Source: Acidobacteria bacterium RIFCSPLOWO2_12_FULL_66_21 (lineage in GTDB: Bacteria; Acidobacteriota; Vicinamibacteria; Vicinamibacterales; 2-12-FULL-66-21). Taken from it: a DNA stretch of 64,000 nucleotides. A program made the translations under genes and the position numbers. This document shows positions 25,454-28,886 of the stretch, in pieces. The stretch is from the NCBI GenBank assembly GCA_001767455.1, contig MELC01000086.1, positions 233,149 through 297,148 of the forward strand, read 5' to 3'. Within the stretch, counting starts at the first letter, position 1; every line of letters begins with the position of its first letter. The notes under the pieces were generated by a model. The model saw only the letters and a program-made list of their open reading frames with translations. It was not told where the DNA came from and ran no database searches.

Positions 25454-25996
25454 ATGTTCATCAAACTGGCTGTACCCCTTGCCCTGGTTTGGCTCTGCGC
25501 GGCGGGCGGCCCGCTCTCTCAGACATCGCCGGGCGCCGGGCCCGTCATCGTGCTCGAGACCGCGAAGGGCACCATCGAATTCGAGACCTATCCCGACGAA
25601 GCGCCAAAGACCGTCGCACAGATCGTGTCGCTCGTGCAGAAGGCGTTCTACGACGGCCAGCGATTTCACCGCGCGGAGCCGAACTTCCTCATCCAGGTCG
25701 GCGATCCCACGACGCGCAACATGACGATGATGGAGTCGTGGGGCCGCAACGGGAGCGGGAAGCGGATCGGCGTCTCGGAGATTACGAAGAAGCGCCGGAA
25801 CGTGCGCGGCGCCGTCGCCATCGCGTACGGCGGCACCGATCCGCGCACGGCGGACAGCCAGTTCTACATCCTCCTCGAGGCCCATCCCGATCTGGACACG
25901 AGGTACACGGTGTTCGGCCGCGTGATCACGGGGATGGAGGTGGCTGACAAGATCCAGCGCACCGATGTGCTCAGGAAAGCTTACGTGAAGGAGTGA
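25454..25996 (+). CDS. Exported cyclophilin-type peptidyl-prolyl isomerase
   Basis: A 180-residue cyclophilin with a signal peptide (MFIKLAVPLALVWLCAAGG). The fold is shown by GTIEFETYPDEAPKTVAQIV, FYDGQRFHRAEPNFLIQVGD with the active Arg and Phe, and ADSQFYILLEAHPDLDTRYT followed by VFGRVITGMEV. It should help fold periplasmic proteins. Its 3' end overlaps the convergent DUF72 gene by 26 bp. Confidence 0.92.
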   Translation: MFIKLAVPLALVWLCAAGGPLSQTSPGAGPVIVLETAKGTIEFETYPDEAPKTVAQIVSLVQKAFYDGQRFHRAEPNFLIQVGDPTTRNMTMMESWGRNGSGKRIGVSEITKKRRNVRGAVAIAYGGTDPRTADSQFYILLEAHPDLDTRYTVFGRVITGMEVADKIQRTDVLRKAYVKE

Positions 25997-26924
25997 CGGG
26001 AAGCTCCCGGACGATGCCTTTGAGATCGGGGTAGCGCTCGACGAATTCCGGCGGGTAGCCGCCGGGCAGCTCCTGCTCGAGTTTGTGCTTGAGGATCGCG
26101 GCGCTGGCCACAGACTTCGCCGAGAAGTGGTTGTTCGCGTAGAGGTATGCTTTCTTCACCTGGCGCGCGGCCGTTTCGGCGGCCTCCGCGAACCTCTCCA
26201 GCTCCTCGGCCGAGTAGTAGTAGTTGTAGCGATCCTCCGACCGATCGTGACGCCACCACTCGGCGGCGTTGCGCCCGTGCAGCCTCAGGTAATAGAACGT
26301 CCGCACGTTCGGCAGCAGGCTCTGCCTGATTGAAAAGCGGAACTTGGGCTCGTCGATCTGCGTCCACGCGGCGCCGTGCGCGTCGAGCATCTGCAGCGTC
26401 TCCACCGGCTGGTCGCTCCAGCTCTTGTGCCGCAGCTCCACCGCGACCGGGTAGCCGCGGAACCGCTCCAGCAGCCATTCGAGATAGGCGCGCGTGTCCG
26501 GTTCGTTCTTGAAGCTCGCGGGGAACTGGGCGAGCAGCGCCCCCAGCTTGCCCGCCGACGCGATCGGATCCAGCGCGGACCTGAACTCGTCCACGTCCTT
26601 CTGGCCGAGATCCCAGGGATTCTGCCCCGTGGCCTCGTGATACATCTGCGGGTGCGTGAACTTCTGAAAGAGCTTCAGGGAGAACTCGAACCCGGGGGGC
26701 GTGCGTTCGGTCCAGCCGCGCGCGACCGCGGGCGTGGGGATGCGGTAGAAGGTGGAGTTGACCTCGACCGTGTCGAAGTGCTCGGCATAGAAGCGCAGCT
26801 CGTCGAACTTCGCGCTTCGAGTCTTGTGTCCCGGCGGAACGGGATAGAAGATCCCGTTCCATGTGCCCTCGCCCGCGGGGTAACTCCACCCGGACGTGCC
26901 GACCCGGATCTGGGAGTCAGACAT
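25971..26924 (-). CDS. DUF72 TIM-barrel protein (YecE-like)
   Basis: A 317-residue protein of the DUF72 family: VGTSGWSYPAGEGTWNG at the start, then HFDTVEVNSTFYRIP, LLAQFPASF, VAVELRHKSW, and YYLRLHGR. The family has a TIM-barrel fold; its reaction is unknown. It ends inside the 3' end of the convergent cyclophilin gene. Upstream lies a 200-bp repeat region and no clear promoter. Confidence 0.92.
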   Translation of the reverse strand: MSDSQIRVGTSGWSYPAGEGTWNGIFYPVPPGHKTRSAKFDELRFYAEHFDTVEVNSTFYRIPTPAVARGWTERTPPGFEFSLKLFQKFTHPQMYHEATGQNPWDLGQKDVDEFRSALDPIASAGKLGALLAQFPASFKNEPDTRAYLEWLLERFRGYPVAVELRHKSWSDQPVETLQMLDAHGAAWTQIDEPKFRFSIRQSLLPNVRTFYYLRLHGRNAAEWWRHDRSEDRYNYYYSAEELERFAEAAETAARQVKKAYLYANNHFSAKSVASAAILKHKLEQELPGGYPPEFVERYPDLKGIVRELPVTPSRKLS

Positions 26925-26931
26925 AGGAGTC

Positions 26932-27135
26932 AGCGGAGAAGGAGGAGAGCGCGGAGCGCGTCTTCACACGGAGGCACGGAGCACACGGAGACGCACGGAG
27001 GCTCCGAAGCTGCGAGTCGGCGACACGGATAGTGCACCTCACCGCGCGAAGCGCGGCCAGACGGCCCCCCCGTGCGTCACCGTGAACTCCGTGTCTCCGT
27101 GTGATCGTTCCGTGTCCTCCGTCACCTCCGCACGG
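26932..27135. repeat. Inverted field of CACGGAG words
   Basis: The left half repeats ACGGAGGCACGGAGCACACG-type words (26975-27002); the right half (27075-27130) carries the complements (CTCCGTGTCTCCGTGTG, CCGTGTCCTCCGTC). Together they can form a long imperfect stem between the DUF72 start and the end of the ArsC-like gene. No gene is seen here. Confidence 0.65.
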
Positions 27136-27138
27136 CAA

Positions 27139-27519
27139 TCACAGTTTCCCGTACTTTTCCTTGTCGAAGCCGAAGATGACCTTCCCGCCGCGGACCAGGA
27201 TGGGGCGCCTGATCAGGTTCGGCTGCGCCATCATCAGGTCGATCGCCTCCTTCTTCGTGCGCGGCAGCGGCCGCTGCTTGAAGACGGGGCTCCGCGTGCT
27301 CACGAAGTCGAGGAAATGGCCCGCGTCCACGTGCCGCTCGAGAAACGCGCGGTGGGGCGGGTCGCGGTTGATGTCGTACTCCTCGACTTCCACGTGGCGT
27401 TCATCCAGAAAACTTCTGGCGTTGCGGCACGTGGTTCAGGTCGGCTTCCAGTAGAAGATCGCGCCCCGTCCGCCCGTATCGGTAGGCCCGGCCTTCAGGT
27501 CGGGCTTCGCCTTCGCCAT
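27139..27519 (-). CDS. ArsC-like thioredoxin-fold protein, probable selenoprotein (TGA = Sec)
   Basis: From ATG 27519 the frame runs 126 codons with a single in-frame TGA at codon 28 (27436-27438). Upstream it reads IFYWKPT, downstream TTCRNARSFLDERHVEVEEY, so TGA sits where ArsC/Spx-family proteins have the first Cys of CxxC (KNCSTC-like). The rest is a full ArsC-type domain, with KQRPLPRTKKEAIDLMMAQP and RPILVRGGKVIFGFDKEKYG. A hairpin directly after the TGA supports selenocysteine insertion. A TACAAT box 6 nt before the ATG suggests a leaderless mRNA and supports this start. A nonsense-mutated pseudogene is the alternative. Substrate (arsenate or a thiol/peroxide) is unknown. Confidence 0.75.
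27390..27438 (-). promoter_or_regulatory. SECIS-like hairpin downstream of the in-frame TGA
   Basis: One base after the TGA, CCACGTG (27428-27434) pairs perfectly with CACGTGG (27390-27396). Inside, CCAGAA (27414-27419) pairs with TTCTGG (27405-27410), leaving a GTT apical loop. The apical G is 23 nt after the TGA, within the 16-37 nt usual for bacterial SECIS elements bound by SelB. The two stems are separated by 8-nt internal strands on each side. Confidence 0.7.
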
Positions 27520-27561: not shown

Positions 27562-28203
27562 ATGCTGACCGTCAACGAGATCTTTCACTCGATCCAGGGG
27601 GAGTCGACCCACGCCGGGCGGCCGTGCGTGTTCGTGCGGCTGACCGCGTGCGACTTGCGATGCACGTGGTGCGACACCGCGTACGCGTTCAGCGATGGAC
27701 GCAAAATGCCGGTCGGCGAGGTCGTCGCCGAGGTCGGGTCGTACGGATGCCCGCTGGTGGAGGTCACGGGGGGCGAACCGCTCCTCCAGAAGGAGGTCTA
27801 TCCGCTGATGGAGCACCTGATCGCGCGCGGGCACACCGTCATGCTCGAGACCGGGGGACACCTCCCGATCGACCAGGTGCCGCCCGCGGTCATCCGGATC
27901 GTGGACCTGAAGTGCCCCGGCAGCGGCGAATCCGCGAAGAACCACTGGCCGAATCTCGACGTGCTGCGCGCGCACGACGAGGTCAAGTTCGTGATTCGCG
28001 ATCGCATCGACTACGAATTCGCGGTCGAAGTGATGAACCGGCACGGCCTCGCCGCCCGGACTGCCGCCGTGTTGTTCTCCCCCGTCCATGGCGTGCTCGA
28101 TCCGAAGGTGCTCGCCGGCTGGATTCTCCACGACCGGCTGCCCGCGCGGCTGCAGCTCCAGGTGCACAAGTACATCTGGGGCGCCGACGTGAGGGGCGTG
28201 TGA
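27562..28203 (+). CDS. queE: 7-carboxy-7-deazaguanine synthase QueE
   Basis: A 213-residue radical SAM enzyme of queuosine/7-deazaguanine synthesis, converting 6-carboxy-tetrahydropterin to 7-carboxy-7-deazaguanine. The start [16 protein letters not shown] and the cluster motif [14 protein letters not shown] (CxxxCxxC) are diagnostic, with [11 protein letters not shown] as the SAM-binding GGE motif. Length is normal. Its stop overlaps the queC GTG, and the pair is followed by an AlaX-type gene in the same coupled operon. Confidence 0.96.
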
Positions 28204-28886
28204 GCGGCACGGCCGTCGTCCTCCTGAGCGGCGGGCTCGACTCGTACACCGCCGCAGCCATCGCGCGCCGCGACGGCCACGCCCTTTACGCGCTCACCGT
28301 CCGCTACGGCCAGGTGCACGAACGTGAAGTAGAGGCGGCGCGCGAGGTCGCCCGCGACCTCGGCGTGCTCCGGCACGTCGAGCTCGGCGTGAACCTCGCC
28401 GCCTTTGGCGGGTCGGCCCTGGTCGGCGATGGCGACATTCCGAAGGATCGGCCGCTCGACGAGCGGGGGATTCCCTCCACTTACGTCCCCGCGCGCAACA
28501 CGATCTTCCTGTCGCTGGCGCTGGGCTGGGCGGAAGTGAGCGGGGCCGAGGCGATTGTCATCGGCGTCAACGCGCTCGACTTCTCGGGCTATCCGGACTG
28601 CCGTCCGGAGTATCTCGAGGCCTTCGAGCGCCTGGCCTCGCTGGCCACGCGCGCCGGCGTCGAGGGGCGGCCGCCCCGCATCTTCGCTCCGCTCGTGCAC
28701 CTCTCCAAGTCGGAAATCATCCGGCAGGGAACAGCGCTCGGACTGAACTACGCGCTCACGCACAGCTGCTACGACCCGGCGGCGTCGGGCCGGCCGTGCG
28801 GGCGCTGCGACAGTTGCCGGCTGCGGGCCCGAGGCTTCCGCGAAGCCGGCCTCGAGGATCCCGCGCTCGGAGGAACGCGCCAATGA
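28200..28886 (+). CDS. queC: 7-cyano-7-deazaguanine synthase QueC
   Basis: A 228-residue ATP-dependent enzyme that turns QueE's product into preQ0. The PP-loop [11 protein letters not shown], the stretch [33 protein letters not shown] and the zinc site SCYDP...[14 protein letters not shown] identify it. GTG 28200 overlaps the queE stop; its own stop overlaps the next start (ATGA). Together they feed tRNA queuosine modification. Confidence 0.96.

Follow-up and report, generated by a model that had tools for sequence, protein, structure and literature searches.

Does the interrupted reading frame on the minus strand at positions 27139 to 27519 of the 64,000-nucleotide stretch of DNA analysed here (the window) mark a gene broken by a stop codon, or does it encode a small redox protein in which UGA is read as selenocysteine? 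We addressed this question by comparing the gene, its downstream RNA hairpin and its genomic setting with those of its relatives, and by asking which of the known families the protein resembles.

A UGA codon conserved at the active site

Read on the minus strand from an ATG at 27519, the frame comprises 126 codons and translates as MAKAKPDLKAGPTDTGGRGAIFYWKPT-U-TTC..., with a TGA at codon 28 (27438-27436) and a normal TGA stop at 27141-27139. The ATG is presumably the start codon; orthologues start about 13 residues nearer to the motif. As an earlier note on this DNA had claimed, the in-frame UGA takes the first position of a CxxC motif (U-T-T-C), where homologues have a redox cysteine, and the second, resolving position is an invariant Cys codon (27427 to 27429). 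The claim that the domain is otherwise intact and of the ArsC/Spx type also holds: the 126-residue read-through product scores 53.2 bits on Pfam ArsC (PF03960), for which the gathering score is 24. The mechanical list of open reading frames contains only 27139 to 27393, an 84-residue frame with a GTG start that begins 3' of the UGA, so the active site would be missed, much as the note had foreseen for gene finders.

An interrupted frame whose mechanical call is an 84-residue remnant is also what a pseudogene or a sequencing error would leave, the TGA then being no more than a nonsense mutation within a gene of ArsC type. We regard this as extremely improbable, and as a general explanation it is refuted by the orthologues. 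Among 193 genomes of the class (Vicinamibacteria-type Acidobacteriota), 44 have an orthologue with TGA at the active-site codon; homologues thus carry UGA at exactly this codon, and not stop codons at random places, which the note had named as the mark of a pseudogene. Purifying selection acts on both sides of the UGA (pN/pS of 0.21 upstream and 0.38 downstream), and the hairpin described below is conserved. Almost without exception, the named records that carry the gene are metagenome-assembled genomes of Acidobacteria.

At the nucleotide level we read 42 of the 44 UGA copies, on which the hairpin counts rest, because the active site of the copies in G084 (L068/L163) and G081 (L077/L164) was unreadable by pattern in the loci fetched. 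Two copies stand out individually. L064 (VFZL01000046.1) lies on a contig labelled Acidimicrobiia and encodes exactly the same protein as G067, a genome that belongs to the window's order; probably the record label is wrong or the contig was mis-binned. L075 (G153) has an additional TAG soon 3' of the hairpin, whose stem is weakened at its base; this copy may be decaying or mis-sequenced.

A hairpin under selection downstream of the UGA

Beginning 17 nt after the UGA, the minus strand can form a SECIS-like apical hairpin, CCAGAA-GUU-UUCUGG (27405 to 27419), whose inner 6-bp stem (CCAGAA/UUCUGG) pairs 27419-27414 with 27410-27405 across a GUU loop. The apical G (27413) lies 23 nt after the UGA, as previously noted, and is invariant in the relatives, so that the gene has the feature expected of bacterial selenoproteins, that is, a hairpin that follows closely on the UGA and conserves its apical G. 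In the window this hairpin is enclosed by an outer 7-bp stem (CCACGUG/CACGUGG, 27434-27428 with 27397-27391), which closes the region 27391 to 27434 on the minus strand. The minimum-energy fold holds both stems, with z scores of -3.0 and -2.4 that are only moderately unusual on energy alone, and in some relatives the sequence taken singly shows no notable folding energy.

Both nested stems of the earlier note therefore exist, but they differ in conservation. The inner stem is paired at 96.3% across 40 distinct sequences compared to 92.8% in shuffles, none of 500 reaching the observed value, and its covariation exceeds that of all 500 shuffles. The outer stem is paired at only 46.8% among the relatives, no better than in shuffles, which marks it as a feature local to this genome; we rejected a role for it in the signal. 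What a bacterial SECIS element chiefly requires is the apical hairpin. A search of the window against Rfam at gathering scores gave no matches.

An indication of selection on the RNA comes from pair 24-30 of the hairpin, which is A-U in 28 sequences and G-C in 12, and is never mismatched. Its two sides are both third codon positions, and the exchanges are synonymous on either side, leaving Arg (AGA/AGG) and Phe (TTT/TTC) or Tyr (TAT/TAC) unchanged, so that protein selection cannot explain the match. Codon choice in the hairpin follows the same direction: (i) the Arg codon is AGA or AGG in all 42 genes, compared to 45 of the 410 Arg codons that these genes have outside it (Fisher P = 4e-35, a value that, like any codon P value here, overstates independence because the sequences are related, the bias being nonetheless absolute); (ii) the Ser codon is AGT in 33 of 33 cases, compared to 10 of 169 elsewhere; and (iii) the Ala codon is GCC in 42 of 42, compared to 75 of 227 elsewhere. 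The hairpin codons show a synonymous difference of 0.25, at most half the values for the codons that flank them (0.51 and 0.66). On these comparisons, the hairpin is under selection beyond that of the protein code.

Decoding machinery and the exchange of selenocysteine for cysteine

The source genome (6.48 Mb in 91 contigs) encodes matches to SelA (534 bits), SelB (348 bits) and SelD (360 bits), together with a tRNA with anticodon TCA that scores above the tRNA-Sec cut-off. All four of selA, selB, selC and selD, the set for which the earlier note had proposed to search the genome, are thus present, as in bacteria that make selenoproteins. The selD gene (L018; G000:C42:51949-52878) has an in-frame TGA among the codons of its own active site, GUASK. 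SelD thus looks like a selenoprotein too, and the source genome has a second gene with UGA at a known selenocysteine position. Across the class, 43 of the 44 genomes with the UGA orthologue have a SelA match. The exception, G035, has SelB at 335 bits, and its absent SelA may therefore be an assembly gap. Since 159 of the 193 genomes have a SelA match in any case, the co-occurrence of SelA with the gene is a matter of consistency and not of proof.

UGA read-through does occur in bacteria, and the frame stays open past the TGA, as it would if the codon, through reassignment or read-through, stood for an ordinary amino acid (e.g., Trp or Cys) without selenium. We give this reading hardly any weight. 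The window gene itself, most orthologues and the neighbouring QueE-like gene terminate in TGA, so UGA is not reassigned genome-wide, and we rejected that version outright; read-through to an ordinary residue is at odds with the complete selenocysteine machinery, with the SelB-type hairpin and with the nature of the natural replacement, which is Cys.

This replacement is found in G068, the sole orthologue with Cys (TGC) at the UGA codon, which is placed inside the selenocysteine clade. Its hairpin is lost, with GCCCGGGCGTTTCTCG where the selenocysteine genes have GCCAGAAGTTTTCTGG, and the neighbours of the gene are kept. This pattern is the trace expected of a change from selenocysteine to cysteine, here with loss of the hairpin although both SelA and SelB remain in the genome.

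A phylum-wide profile search returned further ArsC/Spx-like genes with in-frame TGA outside the class. All 18 of those that we read have UxxC, and many have a hairpin of their own, for example GCAAAA-GGTC-TTTTGC, which also occurs in the compensated form GCAAGA-GGTC-TCTTGC. Loci L113-L115, L119, L132-L139, L144-L146, L148, L149 and L151 fall into several separate UxxC ArsC/Spx subfamilies across Acidobacteriota. In a tree of 96 sequences, which rests on few columns and whose deep forks are uncertain, the clade of the window protein is well supported (100/99), and the selenocysteine/cysteine label changes about 10 times, with at least 6 changes forced by well-supported branches. Of five genomes with the Cys form that we checked, SelB scores above the cut-off in G068, G501 and G324 and not in G242 and G451. 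A distant Cys homologue in G501 (L140, TGT) retains a hairpin-like remnant, AAGAA-GTT-TTCTT, at the SECIS site of its selenocysteine homologues, and its host still has SelB; L140 is possibly a recent change from selenocysteine to cysteine.

Taken together, the machinery, the orthologous UGA and the selection on the hairpin support the claim of the earlier note that this is a selenoprotein with a SECIS-like hairpin. Judged by sequence comparison, the window gene almost certainly encodes a selenoprotein, and we infer that selenocysteine is inserted in the living cell.

Fold, neighbourhood and likely function

The predicted structure (AlphaFold, mean pLDDT 95.0) is a confident ArsC fold. Among solved structures, YffB comes closest in fold (1rw1; TM-score 0.87 by query length), followed by Spx and ArsC-family proteins; the TM-score to 1z3e, of the Spx/YffB set, is 0.81 by query length. 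The best NCBIfam model for the protein is TIGR01617 (Spx/MgsR family), which it matches just under the cut-off (73.9 compared to 75.05 bits) and which is matched by all 37 members (best E value, 2.1e-26).

The Pfam ArsC match, and the conservation of the nucleophile position and Arg94 in the alignment with plasmid ArsC, would suit a selenoprotein acting as a glutaredoxin-type arsenate reductase. Yet Trp, Ser and Phe stand where ArsC has His8, Arg60 and Arg107, so that Arg94 is the only one of the arsenate-binding residues Arg60, Arg94 and Arg107 (TIGR00014) present in the alignment, the TIGR00014 score is 35 bits compared to a cut-off of 106, and none of the immediate neighbours of the window gene is an arsenic-resistance gene. 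We therefore rejected "arsenate reductase" as a name, the key residues being missing, and consider this activity quite improbable. The "ArsC-like" of the earlier note stands in the sense of ArsC/Spx-related and not as ArsC proper.

An Spx-like redox switch, that is, a putative binder of RNA polymerase, is a less remote but still unlikely role. The best profile matches among solved sequences are Spx chains, TIGR01617 is the best model, and the CxxC of Spx lies at the same place. On the other hand, TIGR01617 covers a broad set of proteins, the window protein as aligned has no Spx C-terminal tail, and the Spx-specific models score far below their cut-offs (45 compared to 123 bits and 26 compared to 159 bits). 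Given the missing arsenate residues, the lack of an Spx tail and the low Spx-model scores, a thiol/selenol oxidoreductase is our best guess, and by analogy we moderately favour such a function over that of a regulator or a true arsenate reductase.

Divergent upstream of the gene lie a QueE-like radical SAM gene (27562 to 28203, plus strand) and, after it, queC (28200-28886), and co-directional downstream lies a DUF72 gene (25971 to 26924, minus strand). In 43 loci (the 42 UGA copies and the Cys copy, several shortened by contig ends), the QueE-like and QueC genes are each found in 37 and the DUF72 gene in 34. Most distances from the stop of the selenoprotein gene to the start of the DUF72 gene fall between -15 and +37 bp, suggestive of a single transcript, and the two genes are probably co-transcribed in most relatives. 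In the window, a dispersed palindromic repeat sits between both genes and widens the gap to 214 bp. This imperfect palindrome (26964-27104; 43-nt arms, 84% complementary; DNA fold z of -6.1, tested on 26930-27135) has 113 partial matches in the genome, and pieces of it also lie a short way upstream of the tRNA-Sec gene, at C36:220671-220844. The QueE, QueC and DUF72 neighbours were not found at the more distant ArsC-like genes that we looked at, whether selenocysteine or cysteine forms, and the context may thus reflect shared regional ancestry as much as function.

As a whole, the evidence is best explained by a genuine ArsC/Spx-related selenoprotein of the thioredoxin fold, which is very probably decoded by SelB and likely an oxidoreductase. 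SelB carrying Sec-tRNA(UCA) would recognise the hairpin that begins 17 nt past the UGA, and residue 28 would become selenocysteine, so that the first helix would begin with a U-T-T-C active site. By family resemblance, the selenocysteine would attack an oxidised substrate and the second Cys would resolve the intermediate. The protein would probably be expressed together with the DUF72 protein; DUF72 is a family of unknown function, for which adjacency to a selenoprotein gene is a lead. More speculatively, and with low probability, the protein could be a selenium redox switch, either a minimal Spx-like regulator or a dedicated reductase. Its Sec-Cys pair would then detect or repair oxidation, with the DUF72 protein as a partner, in a lineage of repeated selenocysteine/cysteine swaps. 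Such repeated switching in one scaffold, including G068, makes the benefit of selenocysteine over cysteine testable with close natural pairs.

Comparison with known systems

The window protein shares the fold of Spx and YffB, and the CxxC of Spx lies at the same place. Spx and YffB use Cys where the window protein has selenocysteine, the C-terminal tail of Spx is missing from the window protein, and the YffB-type protein in the alignment has no second Cys, unlike the window protein. Among selenoproteins, the Sargasso Sea selenoprotein arsenate reductase (PMC1088965) belongs to the same superfamily and also has selenocysteine at the nucleophile, but its motif is UxxS and not UxxC. The Global Ocean Sampling survey described a selenoprotein named "Arsenate reductase 2" or "ArsC 2" (cd03032) with UxxC (PMC2398784). 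Like the window protein, it has an ArsC/Spx-type domain with selenocysteine first in UxxC; it is known from marine metagenome reads, and we liken it to the clade of the window protein by its published description. We take cd03032 to be the Spx subfamily.

A 2026 review (PMC13188914) lists NF041106 (ArsC_rel_Se_1, ArsC family (seleno)protein), likewise a small ArsC-related selenoprotein with UxxC. Members of NF041106, all of them with TGA, are found in further families of the class and form a separate long-branch clade apart from that of the window protein, which scores 27 bits compared to a cut-off of 85; we rejected membership on both grounds. The kind of protein and its mechanism, a UxxC ArsC-like selenoprotein, are thus already known. 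We found no literature on the window's clade in open-licence papers, where the clade and its distribution appear to be undescribed; a published description may exist elsewhere. Compared with the curated NF041106 model, the present analysis adds an ArsC/Spx-type selenoprotein clade that is widespread in Acidobacteriota and whose active site would be cut off by an ordinary ORF call.
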